From Chelatococcus sambhunathii (GTDB lineage: Bacteria; Pseudomonadota; Alphaproteobacteria; Rhizobiales; Beijerinckiaceae), in contig NZ_LIOL01000002.1 of the NCBI RefSeq assembly GCF_001418005.1, forward strand, positions 242,990 to 306,989: 64,000 bases of DNA. Direction: 5' to 3'. Shown one piece after another: positions 290 to 57,699 of this stretch. The translations under genes were made by a program, and so were the position numbers. The notes under the pieces were generated by a model. The model was not told where the DNA came from. It did not search any database and saw nothing but the letters and a program-made list of their open reading frames with translations. Position 1 is the first letter of the stretch. Each line of letters opens with the position of its first letter.

Positions 290-877
290 TCACCGTGGAA
301 CGGATTTGGGCAGGGACGCTGTCGGAAAAGTCTCGGTCCGCTCGATGCAGCTCGAGGCCGACTGCTCGTCGAGCTCTTCCAGCAGCCGCAGCCGCGCACG
401 GCTGAGTCGGCTCTTCACCGTGCCGAGGGCACAGCCGCAGATCTCGCCCGCTTCTTCGTAGCTCATGCCGAGAACGCCCACGAGCACGATGATCTCGCGG
501 TGCTGGGGCGGCAGGCGCTGGATGGCTTCATAAAGCTCGCGCCCGCGGGTCGACCATTCCTGCGTCGCGTCGACGCGCAGGCGCGTCGACGCGCAGTCGC
601 TCACCCCCGGGGCCTCCCGTCGGGCAAGCTTCGCCTGCGTGTAGAACGTGTTGCGCATGATGGTGAACAGCCACGATTTCAGGCTGGTGCCGGCTTCGAA
701 CTGCTCGATCTTGGCGAGAGCCTTGGTCAAAGTCTCCTGTACGAGGTCGTCAGCATCGCTGGTGTTGCGGCAGAACGTGCGCGCGAAGGCACGCAGGGCA
801 GGAATGAGCGCGACGATCTCGGAGCTAGATTGTTGGTGCGAGGCGTGTCCTTTCTCGAGCCTTCGGTCAGGCTGCAT
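290..877 (-). CDS. ecfG: EcfG-type RNA polymerase sigma factor (general stress response)
   Basis: A 195-residue ECF sigma factor. Region 2 covers about residues 22-88 and includes DDLVQETL at 43-50. Region 4 covers about 115-168, with a helix-turn-helix around SYEEAGEICGCALGTVKSR. The motifs LIPALRAFAR, SWLFTIMRNTFY and ICGCALGTVKSR are typical of EcfG, the alphaproteobacterial general stress sigma factor released when phosphorylated PhyR captures NepR. I chose the ATG at 877 because GGAGG lies 8 nt before it; an in-frame ATG at 910 would add 11 residues. A nepR-like gene lies upstream on the same strand. No phyR or its kinase is in the window. A weak EcfG-like promoter (944-968) precedes it, so autoregulation is possible. 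Confidence 0.9.
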   Translation of the reverse strand: MQPDRRLEKGHASHQQSSSEIVALIPALRAFARTFCRNTSDADDLVQETLTKALAKIEQFEAGTSLKSWLFTIMRNTFYTQAKLARREAPGVSDCASTRLRVDATQEWSTRGRELYEAIQRLPPQHREIIVLVGVLGMSYEEAGEICGCALGTVKSRLSRARLRLLEELDEQSASSCIERTETFPTASLPKSVPR

Positions 878-1254
878 GGCGATTGCCTCCGCAGAATCGT
901 GTGCTGGCATCCGAGCCGCCCCTCCGGCCCGTCCTCTTGGGACAATGTTCGCCCCGTCCGATAGTTCCGCGATCTCGGGGAAAAATCGATGCCGCCGAGG
1001 CGCTGGTCTCGGGCTGGGGGCGGGTTGGGCCGGCGGGGCAAGGCGAGCCGGTCGTCGCCGCGCTATACGATCGATCCGGGGAACTGGTTCATGACGAACC
1101 GGCTGCGGTCGAAGCCGTGTTGCGCAGCGCCAGCTTCGTCATCACCGACCCGCTGGAGCGGCGTTATCTCTTCAAGGCGCGGTCAACGGCACGACGCGAC
1201 CGAACGGCCGCTGTCTTGGCCGCCCTGACGGCAGTCGACACCGCCGTAATCTCG
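878..1254. other. Spacer between ecfG and nepR
   Basis: This 377-nt gap holds the weak EcfG-like promoter at 944-968. On the plus strand, about 1030-1250 reads as a protein-like stretch (for example SFVITDPLERRYLF), but that frame continues antisense through nepR and has no convincing start or ribosome binding site. It may be a coding remnant or chance. I see no other gene here. Confidence 0.4.
944..968 (-). promoter_or_regulatory. Possible EcfG-type promoter of ecfG
   Basis: Read on the minus strand this is GGAAC (968-964), a 16-bp spacer, then CATT (947-944). The EcfG consensus is GGAAC-N16/17-CGTT, so the -35 element is exact and the -10 element has one mismatch. Transcription would start near 937, about 60 nt before the chosen ecfG start. 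Sigma factors of this class often control themselves. The match is imperfect and could be chance. Confidence 0.35.
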
Positions 1255-1434
1255 TCAACCCTGGTCCTTCTCGCGCCGCTGCCTCGTCAGCGCCTCCTGG
1301 AGCTCGAGGGCAAGCACGAGCAGTCGCTCGGGCACCGGTTCGCGCTCGATTTCGTCGAGCAGCAACCGGATGTCTCTCGCGCACGTCGCCGAGGCAGTCG
1401 GTTCCTTCATGTGCTTGCCGATATTCTCGCCCAT
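1255..1434 (-). CDS. nepR: NepR-like anti-sigma factor
   Basis: A 59-residue protein that falls below usual ORF length cut-offs. Residues 22-42 read IRLLLDEIEREPVPERLLV. They match the conserved NepR core (LYDEVVNEPVPDRF-type), in which two helices flank an EPVP turn that binds EcfG. The rest is a short acidic/basic tail ending in RREKDQG. In the known system NepR holds EcfG inactive until phosphorylated PhyR binds NepR. It sits upstream of ecfG on the same strand, as expected, but with an unusually long 377-nt gap. A 12-bp palindrome lies just before the start. The ribosome site is weak (AGGG). Assignment rests on the EPVPERLL motif plus synteny. Confidence 0.8.
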   Translation of the reverse strand: MGENIGKHMKEPTASATCARDIRLLLDEIEREPVPERLLVLALELQEALTRQRREKDQG

Positions 1435-1442
1435 GACGGCCC

Positions 1443-1454
1443 TAACAATTGTTA
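1443..1454. promoter_or_regulatory. 12-bp perfect palindrome before nepR
   Basis: TAACAATTGTTA is self-complementary and lies 8 bp upstream of the nepR ATG. It could be an operator or shape the 5' untranslated region. It is AT-rich against a GC-rich background. No binding protein can be assigned. Confidence 0.4.
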
Positions 1455-2055
1455 ATCACATGAGCCTCGCCCCTTGCCGTCGCGATTGCAAGCGAAACAT
1501 CACCATTTGACAGAGATTTCAAGGTGTTCCGATCTGTCGGCTGGTATCAGGAGAAGGCGCGCCGCGGGTTCTGGATCGGCGGATCGCCCGGTGCCAGAGG
1601 GCCGGACCGTCCGTTTCGTCGGAATTGCGACCAAGCCCGCCGCCCAGCAGGCTATGGGGCTTCGGCTCCTCCACAGGCGGATGGGCAGTGGGCGGGGAAT
1701 CGGAGTGGGCGACTGGGGTGCGGAGGCCGAGCCCGGGCGGGGATGGGCCCATCTCGCGGGGGCGGATCTCCGGGACAGGCAGACGAAGGTATGATGCATT
1801 GGCATGCTTCGCTTCCTTCACGATCGTGGCGGCGGCGCGTGTCGGCGCGGAGAAGCTCGCGGCCCTAACCGTCGACGCGGCGGCCTGTTCCAGCCTCGGT
1901 TGCGGGACGGGCGCAGGCTATGAGGCAGTCGCCTGTATCCGTCCCGAGCGAGCCGTGGCTGCGCCGGTCATCCGTGTCGACTGGCCGCCGGCCGGCGATC
2001 GCTGCGCCCGTAGCGTCTCGCCCGTCTCGTAGCCGGCGCCGAAGGGGCGGGAGAA

Positions 2056-2080
2056 GGAACATCCGCGCCGCGAAGCCGTT
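2056..2080 (+). promoter_or_regulatory. EcfG-type promoter of ku-ligD
   Basis: GGAAC (2056-2060), 16 bp, then CGTT (2077-2080) is an exact match to the alphaproteobacterial general-stress promoter. It ends 43 nt before the ku ATG, leaving room for a leader of about 35 nt with AGGAG at the correct place. Together with ecfG and nepR next door it suggests stress-induced end joining. Matching is by eye. Confidence 0.7.
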
Positions 2081-2123
2081 GAGGGAAAGGACCATTTAGC
2101 AGGGATCAGCCGAGGAGCAGGCC

Positions 2124-3002
2124 ATGGCCGAGCGCCCGGTCTGGAAGGGCCAGCTGCGTTTGTCGCTCGTCTCCATTCCGGTGGAGATGTATTCGGCGAC
2201 GAACACGTCGGCGCGCATCTCCTTCCGCCAGATACACAAGCCCTCGGGCAAGCGCGTGCAGTACCAGAAAGTCGTGCCCGGCGTCGGACCGGTGAAGAAC
2301 GACGATGTCTGGAAGGGCTACGAGGTCGAGGACGACGAATATGTGCTGATCGATCCGGATGAGATCGACGCCATCAGGCTCGAGACGAAGAAGACGCTCG
2401 AGCTCGTGCATTTCGTTGATGTCTGCGAGATCCCTCCGCTCTACTTCGACCGTCCGTATTTCCTCGCCCCCACCGACGAACTGGCGGAAGACGCCTTCCG
2501 GGTGGTGCGTGACGCGCTCGCGGAGACGCGCAAGGCGGGGCTCGGCCAGCTCGCCATGCGCGGCCGGGAATATCTCGTCGCCGTGCGGCCGTGCGGCAGC
2601 GGCCTTTTGGCGGAGACGCTCCACTACGAGGAAGAGATTCGCAAGACCGACGCCTTCTTCTCCTCGATCTCGCGCAAGGCCGCCGAGAAGGACCTGCTCG
2701 AGGTCGCCAAGCAGTTGATTGACCGCAAGAGCGGCCCCTTCGACGCGAGCGCCTTCGAGGACCGCTATGCCGAGGCCATCCGGACCCTGATCGACGAGAA
2801 GGTCAAGGGGCGCAAGCCGAAGCGCGTGAGGGCCGAGGAGGAGGCCCGGCCGCGCGGCGGCAATGTCGTCGACCTGATGTCGGCCCTCAAGGAGAGCCTC
2901 GAGAAATCCGGCACGCAGCCGTCGTCGCCGAAGAAGCGGCCGGCGCAGAAGAAGCCGGCCGGGAAGGCGGCCCCGGCCTCGCGGCGCAAGAAGTCGGCGT
3001 GA
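2124..3002 (+). CDS. ku: Non-homologous end joining protein Ku
   Basis: A 292-residue bacterial Ku, which forms homodimeric rings on broken DNA ends and recruits LigD. The N-terminal 200 or so residues carry the Ku core, starting WKGQLRLSLVSIPVEMYSA and including LETKKTLELVHFVDVCEIPP. The last 45 residues are rich in lysine and arginine (SPKKRPAQKKPAGKAA), the usual DNA-binding tail. AGGAG lies 6 nt before the ATG. ligD starts 7 nt downstream, so the two form an operon. An exact EcfG-type promoter lies upstream. Length and motifs are normal for the family. Confidence 0.95.
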   Translation: MAERPVWKGQLRLSLVSIPVEMYSATNTSARISFRQIHKPSGKRVQYQKVVPGVGPVKNDDVWKGYEVEDDEYVLIDPDEIDAIRLETKKTLELVHFVDVCEIPPLYFDRPYFLAPTDELAEDAFRVVRDALAETRKAGLGQLAMRGREYLVAVRPCGSGLLAETLHYEEEIRKTDAFFSSISRKAAEKDLLEVAKQLIDRKSGPFDASAFEDRYAEAIRTLIDEKVKGRKPKRVRAEEEARPRGGNVVDLMSALKESLEKSGTQPSSPKKRPAQKKPAGKAAPASRRKKSA

Positions 3003-3009
3003 GGGGCCC

Positions 3010-5550
3010 ATGGCCGAGGTGCGGCATCTGCTCAGGGAATACCGGGAGCGGCGGGATTTCACCAGGACAGCCGAACCCGACGTCACGGCCGAGGCCCGCA
3101 CCGGCGAGGGGCTGCTCTTCGTCGTGCAGAAACATGCCGCGACGCGCCTCCACTACGATTTCCGCCTCGAATGGCAGGGTGTTCTGAAGAGCTGGGCGGT
3201 GACGCGCGGCCCGAGCCTCGACCCTGCCGACAAGCGGCTCGCGGTGCGGACCGAGGACCATCCGCTCGCCTATGGCGACTTCGAGGGCATCATTCCCAAG
3301 GGCCAGTACGGCGGCGGCACGGTCATGCTGTGGGACCGCGGCACCTGGGAGCCTGTCGGCGACCCTGACGAGGGCCTGCGCCGCGGCAAGCTGACCTTTC
3401 GCCTTCACGGCGAGCGGCTGTCGGGCGAATGGGCCCTCGTGCGCATGGCGCCGAAGCCGGGCGACAAGCGCGAGAACTGGCTGCTGATCAAGCATCAGGA
3501 GGAAACCTCCGGCCGGCGCCGCCCGCCGGACATTCTGACGCGCCATACCCGCAGCGTCGCCTCCGGGCACACGATGGAGGAAATCGCCGCTGAGGGGCGC
3601 ACGATCGCCCCCGAGGATGTGGCGCCGGAGCGACGCGCCCGGCGGCCGGCGGCGAAGGCTGCGGAGAAAAAGGCCCGCAAGGGCGGCCGGGGCGGGCATG
3701 CGCTGCCGCGCTGGGTGGAGCCGCAGCTCGCTACGCTGGTCGACGCCGCGCCCGAGGGCGGGCAATGGCTGTCGGAGATGAAATACGACGGCTACCGCGC
3801 CCTGGTCGCCATCGGCGGCGGCACCTGCCGCGTCTATACCCGCAACGGCAAGGACTGGACCGATCGCTTCCCCGAGGTCGCGCAGGCGGCCGGCCGTCTC
3901 GACACGTCGGGCACCCTGATCGATGGCGAGATCGTCGCCTTCGACGAGAAGGGCAAGACCGACTTTTCCACCCTGCAGGCGGCGTTGCAGGAGGGCAGGA
4001 GAGGACTGACGTTCTTCGCCTTCGATCTCCTGTGGCTCGACGGCGAGGACGTCCGCGGGCGTCCCCTCACCGAGCGCAAGGACCTGCTGCAGCAGCTCCT
4101 CGGCGAGGCCGGGCCGCCGCTCATCTATTCGACGCATGTCGTCGGCAACGCGTCCGAGGTGAACCGGCGGCTGTGCGCGGCCGGGCACGAGGGAATCGTC
4201 GCCAAGCGGGCGGAGGACGCCTACCGCTCCGGCCGCGGGCGCAGCTGGCTGAAGGTGAAATGCGGAGCGCGCCAGGAGTTCGTCATCGGCGGCTATAGGC
4301 CGAGCGACAAGAAGGGCCGCACCGTCGCCTCGCTGCTGATCGGCGTCAACGAGGGAGGCAAGCTCGTCTACAAAGGACGGGTGGGGGCCTTCGAGGGCGA
4401 CCATCTGGCGCGGCTGGAGCAGCTCCTCGCCAGCCGCGGCCGCAAGACCTCGCCCTTCGCCGAGCTGCCGCGCGATATCGCTCGACGGGCTCGCTTCGTG
4501 CGGCCGGACATCGTCGTCGAAGTCGGCTTTACTGAATTCACGCGCGAAGGCGCCGTCCGCCACGGCGTTCTGAAGGGCATCCGCGAGGACAAGCCGGCGC
4601 GCGAGGTGGTGTTGGAGACACCCAGGGGGACGGCCATGCAGGAGCACGAAGCGCGGGATGTCATCGCCGGCATCAGGCTGTCCAACCCGGACAAGGTGCT
4701 CTTCGCCGAGCAGGGCGTGACGAAGGCCGATCTGGCGGCCCATTACGAGCGCGTGGCCGGGCGGATCCTGCCCTTCGTCTCGGAACGTCTTCTCAGCCTC
4801 GTGCGCTGCCCCGAGGGGGCCGGCACACAGTGCTTCTTCCAGAAGCACGGCAACAAGACCGTGGCCCGCGAGCTCAAGCGCCGCGAGATCACCGAGAGCG
4901 ACGGCGAGCGCGGCGTCTATCTCTATGTCGACGACCTCGCGGGTCTCGTCGCCGGCGTGCAGATGGGGACGCTCGAATATCACATCTGGGGCTCGCGCAT
5001 CGATCGCCTCGACCAGCCGGACCGGCTGGTCTTCGATCTCGATCCCGACGAGGGGCTCGACTTCGCCGCCGTGCGCGCCGCCGCCTTCGACCTGCGCGAG
5101 CGGCTCGCGACGCTCGGCCTTCAGACCGTGCCGCTGCTGACCGGCGGCAAGGGCATCCATGTCATCGCCCCCCTCGTGCGCCGGGCGGACTGGCCGATGG
5201 TCAAGGCCTTCGCCCGCGGCTTCGCCCGGCTCATCGCCGGGGAAGAGCCGGACCGCTATGTCGCCCAGGCCTCGAAGGCCAAGCGCGCCGGCCGCATCTT
5301 CGTCGACTGGCTGCGCAACGAGCGCGGCTCCACCGCCATCGCGCCCTATTCGACGCGGGCGAAGAAGAACGCGCCGGTCGCGACCCCTGTGGGCTGGGAC
5401 GAGTTGCGGACCATCGACACCGCCCAGGCCTTCACCATTGCCGACATGGAGAGACGCCTGTCGATGCCGGATCCCTGGGCGGGTGAAGCCGAGGGGCGCC
5501 AGGCGATCACGAAGACCATGCTCGGGAAGGTGGGTGCCGAGGAGGGCTGA
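3010..5550 (+). CDS. ligD: ATP-dependent DNA ligase D (PE-LIG-POL)
   Basis: An 846-residue multifunctional end-joining enzyme. The N-terminal phosphoesterase domain (about 30-180) has H42, H48, D50, R52, H84 and Y88, the same residues and numbering as I recall for the Pseudomonas LigD metal site. The ligase domain (about 230-540) has the nucleophile K258 in EMKYDG. The primase-polymerase domain (about 560-846) has metal-binding D676 and D678 in VFDLDPDEG, plus LLTGGKGIHVI. It trims, fills and seals ends brought by Ku. GAGGGG precedes the ATG. A basic linker (about 205-228) separates the first two domains. All three active sites look intact. Confidence 0.96.
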   Translation: MAEVRHLLREYRERRDFTRTAEPDVTAEARTGEGLLFVVQKHAATRLHYDFRLEWQGVLKSWAVTRGPSLDPADKRLAVRTEDHPLAYGDFEGIIPKGQYGGGTVMLWDRGTWEPVGDPDEGLRRGKLTFRLHGERLSGEWALVRMAPKPGDKRENWLLIKHQEETSGRRRPPDILTRHTRSVASGHTMEEIAAEGRTIAPEDVAPERRARRPAAKAAEKKARKGGRGGHALPRWVEPQLATLVDAAPEGGQWLSEMKYDGYRALVAIGGGTCRVYTRNGKDWTDRFPEVAQAAGRLDTSGTLIDGEIVAFDEKGKTDFSTLQAALQEGRRGLTFFAFDLLWLDGEDVRGRPLTERKDLLQQLLGEAGPPLIYSTHVVGNASEVNRRLCAAGHEGIVAKRAEDAYRSGRGRSWLKVKCGARQEFVIGGYRPSDKKGRTVASLLIGVNEGGKLVYKGRVGAFEGDHLARLEQLLASRGRKTSPFAELPRDIARRARFVRPDIVVEVGFTEFTREGAVRHGVLKGIREDKPAREVVLETPRGTAMQEHEARDVIAGIRLSNPDKVLFAEQGVTKADLAAHYERVAGRILPFVSERLLSLVRCPEGAGTQCFFQKHGNKTVARELKRREITESDGERGVYLYVDDLAGLVAGVQMGTLEYHIWGSRIDRLDQPDRLVFDLDPDEGLDFAAVRAAAFDLRERLATLGLQTVPLLTGGKGIHVIAPLVRRADWPMVKAFARGFARLIAGEEPDRYVAQASKAKRAGRIFVDWLRNERGSTAIAPYSTRAKKNAPVATPVGWDELRTIDTAQAFTIADMERRLSMPDPWAGEAEGRQAITKTMLGKVGAEEG

Positions 5551-5663
5551 GAAGGTCCGGGCCGCGTCATCGGGCCGGGGACAGTCCGCTTGGGGAGTGG
5601 TTGGGGGGCACACGCGCGTCTCCGGGCGCCCTTTCGCAACGGCCCGCAAGCAAGGTGAGTCCC

Positions 5664-5989
5664 ATGAAACGGGCACGACCGACGCAGGTGCTGCCGCCCG
5701 AAGCGCCGGGACCGTGGAGCGTCTGCGGCGCTACATCGACCTCGGAAAGACGGGGGACAAGGTGCCCTTTCCCGACCCCGCAGCCGCGCCGCTCGGCACC
5801 GACGACGAGGCGGCCGGAACGCCCACCACGGCTGCGGAAGTGCACTCGGAGAGTCGCACGTTGACGCCGCAGCCGCACAGCCGCCGCGCCATCATCGTCG
5901 CGGCCGGGATCGCGGGCGCGGCGGTCGTCTTCATCATGCTGTCGCGGCCCTCGGGTGAGGAGCCGCGACAGGCCGTGGGCGGGGCGTGA
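5664..5989 (+). pseudogene. Small membrane protein with probable frameshift
   Basis: An ATG at 5664 with AAGGTG 6 nt upstream opens a frame reading MKRARPTQVLPPEAPGP. This leaves the coding frame near 5711. The next frame, from a GTG at 5714 to 5989, reads VERLRRYIDLGKTGDKVPF, then PDPAAAPLGTDDEAAGTP, and ends with a membrane helix (IIVAAGIAGAAVVFIML). The motif YIDxGxTGDKV..DPAAAPLGTDDEAAGTP occurs, from memory, in short rhizobial proteins of unknown function. One extra G in the run at about 5708-5710 would join the two halves. The alternative is an intact 91-residue protein starting at GTG 5714. It could belong to the ku-ligD transcript. Confidence 0.55.
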
Positions 5990-6326
5990 TTGGGTGTCGC
6001 TTCAGGCCGGCACCGCCGTACTTCGAGACAGCAGGCGCCGGAAAAAGGGGCCCAGCCGGCGTCCGCTACATCGCAGACCAGGGGAAGGGGATGGGGGCGA
6101 CGCACCACCGCCGGCTGGACGTCAACCAACGATCGATGACGGGCATTGTTCCGCTCCGCGACTAAAAATCGCATAAAAATTTCTGCGGGTCGCCCGGCGG
6201 CAGGCTCTCTGGGCTTCGGAACCTTTCCGGCCCCGTCAAGGTTCGGGGGCATTCACGGTGGCGGCCCGCGACAGCGTGCAGAGCGGGCTGTGCCGGACCT
6301 CAAGGAGACCAAGAAGGGTACGGACA
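5990..6326. other. Spacer before the BON-domain gene
   Basis: A 337-nt gap without a recognisable gene. It includes an AT-rich run near 6165-6182 and the EcfG-like promoter at 6218-6243. A GTG at 6258 could extend the BON-domain gene by 23 codons, but it lies too close to the predicted transcription start. Confidence 0.5.
6218..6243 (+). promoter_or_regulatory. EcfG-like promoter of the BON-domain gene
   Basis: GGAAC (6218-6222), 17 bp, then GGTT (6240-6243). One mismatch to GGAAC-N16/17-CGTT. The predicted start near 6250 supports translation from the ATG at 6327 rather than the GTG at 6258. Confidence 0.5.
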
Positions 6327-7034
6327 ATGCCGAGAGAACGATCCCCCTGGTACGGCGACGACCGGGAGTATTTCGAAACCGACGACCTGCGCTATCGCGA
6401 CCGTGACTACGGGCCGATGAGCGAGGATGAATGGGCGCGGCAGGTGCGCCGCAACAACCCCTACGAGGACTATTACGAGCGCCGCTACGGCCGTGGCTAC
6501 AACGAGTGGCCGCGCCGCGACCCGCGCTATGACCTCGCCCCGACCGGGGCCGGGCGCTATTCGGCCCTCTATGAGGGCACCTACGGCACCGGCGGGCGCC
6601 GCCAGCGCCAGCCCTACGGCGGACGGGAACACTACGCGCGCGACTATCATGCCCGCCGGCCCGAGGAGCGCGACTTCTGGGACAAGGCGAGTGACGAGAT
6701 CTCGTCCTGGTTCGGCGACGAGGAGGCCGAGAGGCGGCGGCGGCAGGACCAGTACCGCGGTCACGGCCCGAAGGGCTACACCCGCTCGGACGAACGCATC
6801 AAGGAGGATGTGAGCGACCGCTTGAGCGACGACCCCTCGCTCGATGCATCGGGCATCGAGGTGAGTGTCGAATCGCATGAGGTGACCCTCTCCGGCGAGG
6901 TCTACAGCCGTTACGACAAGCGGCGGGCCGAAGATATCGCCGAGGACGTGTCGGGCGTCACCCATGTCCAGAACAATCTGAGGGTGAACGCCAGAGCGAC
7001 GGGCCCGGACACGGGCGTGAACACGACCTTCTGA
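6327..7034 (+). CDS. BON domain-containing protein
   Basis: A 235-residue protein in two parts. The first 140 or so residues are rich in Arg, Tyr, Asp and Gly with low-complexity runs (DYYERRYGRGYNEW, RDPRYD) and look disordered. The C-terminal 75 residues form a BON domain (TRSDERIKEDVSDRL, then IEVSVESHEVTLSGEV, then VSGVTHVQNNLRV). BON domains bind phospholipid or occur in stress-related envelope proteins such as OsmY. No signal peptide is visible. I chose the ATG at 6327 because AGAAGGG precedes it and the EcfG-like promoter fits. Expression under envelope or osmotic stress is an inference from the domain and promoter. Confidence 0.8.
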   Translation: MPRERSPWYGDDREYFETDDLRYRDRDYGPMSEDEWARQVRRNNPYEDYYERRYGRGYNEWPRRDPRYDLAPTGAGRYSALYEGTYGTGGRRQRQPYGGREHYARDYHARRPEERDFWDKASDEISSWFGDEEAERRRRQDQYRGHGPKGYTRSDERIKEDVSDRLSDDPSLDASGIEVSVESHEVTLSGEVYSRYDKRRAEDIAEDVSGVTHVQNNLRVNARATGPDTGVNTTF

Positions 7035-7063
7035 CACTTTCCGGATCGGCAGCCCGCCGTCCT

Positions 7064-7091
7064 GCGCCGGCCGGCTCGCGGCCGGCGCTTT
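7064..7091 (+). terminator. GC-rich hairpin after the BON-domain gene
   Basis: A perfect 10-bp stem, GCGCCGGCCG (7064-7073) and CGGCCGGCGC (7079-7088), with a 5-nt loop followed by TTTCG. It lies 30 nt after the BON stop. The T-tract is short, so termination may be partial. The topoisomerase gene starts 15 nt after the stem. Confidence 0.45.
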
Positions 7092-7102
7092 CGTGAGACG
7101 CC

Positions 7103-8179
7103 ATGCTCGCCCATGCGCAAACGGCTTCCGTCCTCCCGCCCGATCCGCCTGCGAGCGCGGAGGCCGCCGATCTTCTCTACATCAACGACGGGGAGCCGGG
7201 CATCCGGCGCAGGCGCGCCGGGCGCGGCTTCTTTTATGTCGATGCCGCCGGCCGGCGTGTCGAGGACGAGGCGACGATGGCGCGCATCCGTAGCCTCGCC
7301 ATTCCGCCCGCATGGACCGACGTGTGGATCGCCCCGACGGGCCGCGGCCATATCCAGGCGACGGGGCGGGACCAGCGCGGCCGCAAGCAATATCGCTATC
7401 ATCCGCTCTGGACAGCCTGCCGCGACGAGGTGAAATACGCGACGCTCGCCGCCTTCGCCCGCGCCCTGCCGCGGATGCGCCGGCGGGTGCGGCGCGACCT
7501 CGCGCTGAAGGGGGTGCCGCGCGAGCGGGTGCTGGCCGCGGTCGTATGGCTGCTCGACCGCGCCATGATCAGGATCGGCAACGAGACCTATCGGCGCCAG
7601 AACAAGAGCTTCGGCCTGACCACGCTGCGGGCGCGCCATGTCGCGGTGCGCGGCGCGTCGCTGCGCTTCGCCTTCCGCGGCAAGTCCGGCAAGGAATGGA
7701 ATCTCGGGATCGAGGACCGGCGCATCGCCAAGGTGATCCGCAGCGTCCAGGACCTGCCGGGGCAGCATCTCTTCCAGTATCGCGACGAGGACGGCAGCCG
7801 TCGCCCGGTCTCTTCTCAGGACGTGAACGACTACATCCGCGCCGCGAGCGGCGGCGAGCCCTTCAGCTCCAAGCAGTTCCGCACATGGGGCGGTACGGTG
7901 CTGGCTGCCCGCCTCCTCTCGGGGACGCCGCTTCCGGTAACGAAACGTGAAAGGGCGCGGAGCCTCAACGAGGTGATCGACGCCGTGGCCGCCCAGCTCG
8001 GCAACACGCGGGCGATCTGCCGGCGCTGCTACATCCATCCCGGGCTGATCAGCGCGTGGGAGGACGGCCGGCTCGCCGAGGAACTCGCGAATGCGCGCGC
8101 CGGGCTCGGCCGCACACCCGCGGGGTTGGCACGCGACGAGGCGGCGGTCCTCGCCTGGCTCGATCGGCAAGAGGGATAG
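7103..8179 (+). CDS. DNA topoisomerase IB
   Basis: A 358-residue poxvirus-like type IB topoisomerase, which relaxes supercoils through a transient 3'-phosphotyrosine. The nucleophile is probably Y310 in CRRCYIHPGL. Other active-site motifs are LLDRAMIRIGNE (about 151-161, with R157), FRGKSGKEW (about 191-199) and KQFRTWGGTVLAA (R260). The N-terminal part contains IPPAWTDVWIAP, a family signature. The start has no good ribosome site; the ATG at 7103 matches the family length. It follows the BON gene by 68 nt. Its place beside ku-ligD suggests a role in DNA stress, but that is inference. Confidence 0.92.
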   Translation: MLAHAQTASVLPPDPPASAEAADLLYINDGEPGIRRRRAGRGFFYVDAAGRRVEDEATMARIRSLAIPPAWTDVWIAPTGRGHIQATGRDQRGRKQYRYHPLWTACRDEVKYATLAAFARALPRMRRRVRRDLALKGVPRERVLAAVVWLLDRAMIRIGNETYRRQNKSFGLTTLRARHVAVRGASLRFAFRGKSGKEWNLGIEDRRIAKVIRSVQDLPGQHLFQYRDEDGSRRPVSSQDVNDYIRAASGGEPFSSKQFRTWGGTVLAARLLSGTPLPVTKRERARSLNEVIDAVAAQLGNTRAICRRCYIHPGLISAWEDGRLAEELANARAGLGRTPAGLARDEAAVLAWLDRQEG

Positions 8180-57609: not shown

Positions 57610-57699
57610 TGGCGGATGGGGTGGGATTCGAACCCACGGTACGGTTGCCCGCACGGCGGTTTTCAAGACCGCTGCCTTAAACCACTCGGCCACCCATCC
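57610..57699 (-). tRNA. tRNA-Ser (UGA)
   Basis: The minus strand folds as a 90-nt type II tRNA with encoded CCA. The acceptor arms are GGATGGG and CCCATCC with discriminator G. The anticodon loop CTTGAAA gives UGA, which reads UCA codons. A long variable arm and the T-loop GGTTCGAATCC are present. The CCA is at 57612-57610. Confidence 0.95.

Follow-up and report, generated by a model that had tools for sequence, protein, structure and literature searches.

A predicted EcfG-type promoter ahead of ku-ligD in Chelatococcus sambhunathii and the recurrence of its motif before ku in Alphaproteobacteria

Introduction

Control of ku by the alphaproteobacterial general stress response (GSR) has been described in several species. 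In Sphingopyxis granuli TFA the ku-ligD genes (SGRAN_4136/4135) are directly GSR-regulated and form part of the EcfG1/EcfG2 regulon, as judged by transcriptomes of ecfG mutants (PMC7083833). Ku of Sphingomonas melonis Fr1 (#1102) is EcfG-dependent, with a log2 ratio of -3.2 in Table 1 of PMC6599016, a table of EcfG-regulated genes in which a Topoisomerase IB is also present; the same paper gives EcfG promoter motifs as enriched at no more than 100 bp from start codons. In Sinorhizobium meliloti the NHEJ genes (Ku2-LigD2 and Ku3/Ku4-LigD4) are induced by RpoE2, as told in PMC12844678. Accessory EcfG paralogues, e.g. SigU, EcfG2 and EcfG1-6 of M. extorquens, are treated in PMC4814048. The comparisons below are with the passages of these papers that concern ku and EcfG.

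Since control of ku by EcfG has been published for S. granuli, S. melonis and S. meliloti, the wiring itself is known, and the ku-ligD genes of Chelatococcus sambhunathii add a further member. The primary paper on the RpoE2-induced NHEJ of S. meliloti is reportedly that of Dupuy et al. 2019. An earlier note on the DNA described here had mentioned stress-sigma control of Ku as reported for some rhizobia; this holds for Sinorhizobium, but the range is wider and takes in Sphingomonas and Sphingopyxis.

Why should the timing of end joining matter? NHEJ mends breaks with no template to copy, at a cost in mutation, and can admit foreign DNA. The moment at which it is switched on thus decides the risk of mutation and of gene uptake that a cell runs. 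If the GSR governs ku throughout the class, the end joiners would be the stressed, dry or non-growing alphaproteobacteria.

The ku-ligD locus and its promoter

The locus lies near the beginning of the window, the 64-kb stretch of DNA that was analysed, which spans 242990-306989 of contig C2. Features from the sigma factor gene to ligD are as follows.

290-910, minus strand: ecfG2, accessory EcfG-type ECF sigma factor (PDB 5uxx_A 127.6 bits; PF22029 52.2 bits, PF08281, PF04542)
944-968, minus strand: EcfG-type promoter of ecfG2, GGAAC-N16-CATT, present in all three ecfG2-bearing Chelatococcus, with the spacer altered
1255-1434, minus strand: 59-aa NepR-like ORF, a possible divergent anti-sigma factor (unproven; weak NepR alignment)
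2056-2080, plus strand: EcfG-type promoter of ku-ligD, with -35 GGAAC at 2056-2060, a 16-nt spacer and -10 CGTT at 2077-2080
2124-3002, plus strand: ku, NHEJ end-binding protein (TIGR02772 Ku_bact 301.7 bits, PF02735 160.7 bits)
3010-5550, plus strand: ligD, with phosphoesterase, ligase and polymerase domains (NF004628 965.2 bits, PF13298, PF01068, PF04679, PF21686)

This ku is the sole one found in the 4.37-Mb genome. Both ku and ligD are complete, and with a gap of only 7 nt between them they look like a single operon and are probably co-transcribed. A ku together with a ligD that carries ligase, polymerase and phosphoesterase domains constitutes a two-component bacterial NHEJ system. S. meliloti, in the account of PMC12844678, resembles this case in that an EcfG-type stress sigma factor raises transcription of NHEJ genes, but it has several ku and ligD copies, whereas C. 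sambhunathii has a single ku in a single operon and an ecfG paralogue close by. Beyond Chelatococcus, the closest relatives of the ku are in Rhizobiaceae MAGs, Mesorhizobium and Chelativorans (74-81%), then in Rhodobacterales and Devosia; among the other genera of its own family, the best homologue in the genomes sampled reaches 46%. The operon thus has had a history that differs from that of the family's usual ku.

The letters at 2056-2080 bear out the exact GGAAC-N16-CGTT that had been claimed 43 nt ahead of the ku start. The ATG of ku is at 2124, which leaves a gap of 43 nt (2081-2123); the match is thus on the same strand as ku and within ~100 bp upstream of its start codon, and it shows the GGAAC and CGTT boxes, 16-17 nt apart, by which EcfG-dependent promoters are recognized. 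No sigma-70-type site was found in 1400-6400. A bare match to the motif proves little, as the window holds three GGAAC-N15-18-CGTT sites where 1.20 are expected (13 of 100 shuffles reach three), and the genome holds 66 GGAAC-N16-17-CGTT sites versus 40 for the reversed pattern. The exact motif is expected 0.0013-0.0027 times per shuffled 200-bp ku upstream region.

The neighbouring sigma factor and the core GSR locus

The earlier note placed an ecfG 1.2 kb, and a nepR 0.6 kb, from the motif. The first was found as claimed: the sigma factor gene at 290-910 (minus strand) is 1.15 kb away, and both PDB and PF22029 make it EcfG-type. The predicted protein consists of sigma2 and sigma4 with no large extensions, as in ECF15-type EcfG, and scores 127.6 bits with 5uxx_A versus 72.8 for the next PDB match; 5uxx we take to be the EcfG-NepR structure, its database title reading only 'RNA polymerase sigma factor'. 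The gene is 42% alike to the genome's own ecfG1, and its orthologues in C. caeni and C. composti stand at 98% and 90%.

The second claim was upheld in part. There is an ORF at 1255-1434, and it is NepR-like: tblastn with a small custom database aligns 56 aa of it at 34% (E 1.5e-4) with a gene of genome G007, which Pfam identifies as NepR (63 bits) and which overlaps the start of an ecfG. Its identity as nepR is unproven; it has no Pfam match even at E<=10 and is absent from the two PF18557 matches of the genome. The counterpart in C. caeni is at 93%, with four synonymous and four non-synonymous codon differences. Scanning the first 9 kb with the loose pattern revealed no fitting EcfG-type promoter directly ahead of the ORF.

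Where, then, is the core of the stress response? The PF18557 search of the genome gave two NepR, and that with PF22029 gave PhyR, EcfG1, the ecfG2 of the window and one further gene on contig C3. PhyR, both NepR and EcfG1 lie together (nepR-ecfG1) on contig C1, which is not the window contig, and the organism carries the PhyR, NepR and EcfG that mark a host of the EcfG regulon. The window ecfG2 is not adjacent to nepR and phyR, as a core copy is, and with the core locus on C1 it represents an accessory paralogue. The neighbouring ecfG and nepR are therefore ruled out as core GSR genes, and the idea that the regulator of the GSR adjoins its target together with its anti-sigma factor found no support in that form; what lies beside ku is another EcfG, accompanied by an ORF whose NepR nature is unproven. 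Among the 66 genomic sites, an exact GGAAC-N16-CGTT is found before the core nepR ORF (nepR-ecfG1) and before phyR, so the consensus is in use in the genome's own GSR locus.

The parallel with S. granuli TFA is close (PMC7083833), with ku-ligD as target, the consensus GGAAC-N16-CGTT and two EcfG paralogues in the genome. The TFA case is founded on ecfG-mutant transcriptomes, the Chelatococcus case on sequence, and ecfG2 adjoins the nepR2-ecfG1 unit in TFA but adjoins ku in Chelatococcus. Like sigU and ecfG2 in the passages of PMC4814048, the window ecfG2 is away from the phyR locus and under an EcfG-type promoter; set against those passages, linkage to ku-ligD is a feature of Chelatococcus. 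The neighbouring accessory ecfG2 is a lineage feature. The further EcfG-like gene, at C3:134000-140000 (L129), scores 56.6 bits with PF22029 and is 34% alike to ecfG2.

Conservation within Chelatococcus and the family

Three congeners were sampled. In C. caeni the identical 25-mer promoter stands before ku, and in C. composti both boxes are retained around a spacer that has diverged in sequence and in length (N17), so the boxes are kept in both ku-bearing congeners; the third (G002) has no Ku among the matches listed. The distance between ku and ecfG2 is ~0.28 kb in C. composti, 1.25 kb in C. sambhunathii and 23 kb in C. caeni. The order ku, NepR-like ORF, ecfG2 and the orientation of these genes are alike in the window genome and C. 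caeni. In C. composti, ecfG2 and ku are divergent neighbours, and the NepR-like ORF has no match in the stretch searched.

Linkage in the family was assessed in 34 genomes, a part of the family, with ku and ecfG both listed on one contig. Among the matches listed, ku is 25 kb or less from an ecfG in 11 of the 34 (five genera), and in the other 23 the distance is at least 238 kb. In several genera of the family (L165-L172) ku and an ecfG are separated by 3-15 kb, which hints at a tendency of NHEJ and stress-sigma genes to cluster.

The motif before ku across Alphaproteobacteria

The scan took in the 200 bp preceding the Ku domain in four sets of ku loci: relatives (30), a class sample (58), the nearest named homologues (32) and the family (56). 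The exact motif was GGAAC-N16-CGTT, the loose motif GGAAC-N16/17-NNTT. Five of 35 ku places in the relatives set were without a locus and were dropped; the family set, among the matches listed, consists of 50 upstream regions and six linked loci, one region at a contig edge having been skipped; and L131 and L132, which repeat L033 and L034, were omitted. Set A contains one gene twice (L046 and L059), so that the distinct loci number 175, with 95 loose and 56 exact matches.

The earlier note had proposed a search for the motif upstream of ku in related genomes. It is there in both ku-bearing congeners, and its exact form precedes ku at 56 of the 176 loci scanned across Alphaproteobacteria, with 120 lacking it. 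By set, the exact motif was found in 14 of 30 relatives, 9 of 58 loci of the class sample, 12 of 32 named homologues and 21 of 56 family loci (among the matches listed), where dinucleotide shuffles of these sets of 30-58 gave means of 0.06-0.085 per set. The reversed pattern was found in none of the four sets. At 400-600 bp upstream the counts are 1, 0, 0 and 0 in the same order, and on the opposite strand 0, 1, 2 and 6, the latter taken as putative divergent promoters. The loose motif precedes 21 of 30, 22 of 58, 16 of 32 and 37 of 56 (again among the matches listed for the family), with shuffle means of 0.56-0.82 and opposite-strand counts of 4, 3, 6 and 9. Among named plasmid ku loci, it occurs in 11 of 18 from Alphaproteobacteria versus none of 12 from elsewhere. 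These 12 comprise 10 Streptomyces loci, out of 16 listed, and the two listed from Cupriavidus, with the Roseateles and Legionella rows left out. Four of the seven alphaproteobacterial plasmid loci without the motif are inner genes of ligD/ku operons.

Does the motif track NepR? In the class sample this expectation was contradicted, as there is no association for either the exact (3 of 20 NepR-negative and 6 of 38 NepR-positive loci) or the loose form (9 of 20 and 13 of 38). Missed NepR calls may account for part of the mismatch. At the level of genomes, NepR is present in 28 of 46 with Ku versus 30 of 243 without (Fisher p 1.3e-11, a value that ignores genome size and kinship), and in all 34 that have a near Ku homologue, a count to which the same applies. 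The 32 near named ku homologues are all in NepR-bearing genomes, yet only the 12 and 16 of them given above carry the exact and the loose motif.

ku-ligD as a probable target of the general stress response

Conservation in the genus, recurrence of the motif across the class, its absence from the 12 loci outside the class and the published EcfG dependence of ku together argue that 2056-2080 is very probably an EcfG-type promoter, which would make ku-ligD a direct target of the GSR. The distribution of the motif further suggests that such wiring of ku is widespread in Alphaproteobacteria. Stress would lead to phosphorylation of PhyR, which would remove NepR from EcfG; EcfG-RNA polymerase would then initiate the ku-ligD transcript a few bases past 2080, with a leader of ~35 nt, and the adjacent EcfG2, with an EcfG-type promoter of its own, may amplify the response. 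Sigma binding, the transcription start, induction by stress, the amplifier role of EcfG2 and the choice of the acting EcfG are what we infer here. Of the proposal that end joining is switched on as part of the GSR, the place of ku-ligD among the targets is thus supported by conservation, recurrence, the control loci and the literature, and the switching-on itself is a prediction.

Could EcfG2 and the NepR-like ORF instead form a self-contained module, a dedicated regulator of ku-ligD apart from the core GSR? The common order and orientation in the window genome and C. caeni, the divergent pair in C. composti and the proximity of ku to an ecfG in those 11 of 34 family genomes, in five genera among the matches listed, speak for such a module. 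Nevertheless it is unlikely, as the ku-ecfG2 spacing ranges from 0.28 to 23 kb, the stretch searched in C. composti gave no NepR-like match, the core locus carries the same motif, and EcfG paralogues of M. extorquens recognize similar promoters according to the passages of PMC4814048.

Readout of 2056-2080 by some other ECF sigma factor is very improbable. GGAAC -35 boxes are common to several ECF groups, and the EcfG-like gene on C3 offers a candidate, but the passages on S. granuli and S. melonis give just this bipartite consensus, without deviation, for EcfG, and phyR and nepR of this genome are preceded by the same motif. The thought that the match arose by chance, with ku read from another, non-consensus promoter, is harder still to credit. 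It draws on the small genomic excess over the reversed pattern and on the class sample, where motif and NepR are not associated. However, only ~0.002 exact motifs are expected per ku upstream region, the boxes are conserved within the genus while the spacer has changed, the motif recurs before unrelated ku lineages, and the 12 ku loci outside the class lack it. Chance is thus rejected on place, conservation and controls, even though the motif by itself is a weak signal at the scale of the genome, and the EcfG-type promoter remains the preferred reading.

GANTC sites in ku promoters of other genera

GANTC is the target of CcrM. The promoter region of the window (1901-2200) has no GANTC, but ku promoters of other genera do. 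Of the 96 loose ku promoters, 18 have a GANTC directly after GGAAC, and 12 have two GANTC inside the 25-26 bp (spacer shuffles give a mean of 0.035 and at most 2). In 298 family genomes, GGAAC-GANTC-N5-8-GANTC-N0-2-GTT has 20 matches versus 2 for the reversed pattern, and 17 of the 20 precede ku (L278, L279, L289, L264, L265, L290, L268, L292, L297, L293, L294, L284, L272, L285, L274, L275 and L287, with the site near position 1501 in each). The single-GANTC form has 31 matches, 18 of them before ku, with 12 in the reversed control, in 24 genomes mostly picked for having the pattern. Eight plasmid ku loci of Rhizobium and Agrobacterium (L303, L304, L320-L324, L326) carry 6-7 GANTC per 200 bp before the Ku domain; the mean in the 12 non-alphaproteobacterial loci is 0.58. 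The paired sites were also considered as a strict operator palindrome, which was rejected, the middle bases being complementary in 17 of the 20 sites but not in three; the arrangement may be a dimer site or may stem from the spacing of GANTC alone. In PMC6599016 the ku promoter of S. melonis likewise bears GANTC and reads GGAACGACTC; there GANTC follows GGAAC and the -10 ends GAATT, whereas the window promoter has neither.

These findings invite a broader speculation, which we regard as doubtful. End joining might be a standing output of the GSR, with unrelated ku lineages each put behind an EcfG promoter and with ku and ecfG drawn together in several genera. In Rhizobiaceae and in other genera of the window's family, GANTC, often as two sites in the spacer and almost confined to ku, might let methylation, and so replication state, gate stress-induced NHEJ, reserving it for cells that lack a newly made sister chromosome; the window promoter, free of GANTC, would be the plain version. 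The open-licence literature yielded no link of GANTC or CcrM with NHEJ, LigD, EcfG, RpoE2 or Ku; a candidate paper, PMC7788130, proved unrelated. With the paired GANTC sites one can test directly whether methylation tied to replication controls the choice of NHEJ.

Other features of the window

Three further features are found downstream of ligD.

6218-6243, plus strand: another possible EcfG-type promoter, GGAAC-N17-GGTT, upstream of the BON/SWFGD gene; the -10 is not consensus, and C. caeni has a matching site (locus L126)
6327-7034, plus strand: BON-domain / SWFGD protein, tentative (PF04972 73.8 bits, NF033157 50.7 bits); 99% in C. caeni
7103-8179, plus strand: topoisomerase IB, tentative (PF01028, PF21338)

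The promoter at 6218-6243 and the BON/SWFGD gene are tentatively placed in the same stress cluster as ku-ligD. The BON/SWFGD and topoisomerase IB genes, both downstream of ku-ligD (6218-8179), are near-identical in C. caeni and have no match in the C. composti stretch searched. S. melonis is alike in having an EcfG-dependent ku with a GGAAC box, and the Topoisomerase IB listed beside it in PMC6599016 recalls the topoisomerase IB gene near the window ku. Another exact GGAAC-N16-CGTT, at 6128-6152 on the minus strand, is oriented back at ligD with no convincing gene downstream, and is perhaps a chance occurrence. The only Rfam match within the window is a tRNA gene at 57613-57699 on the minus strand.
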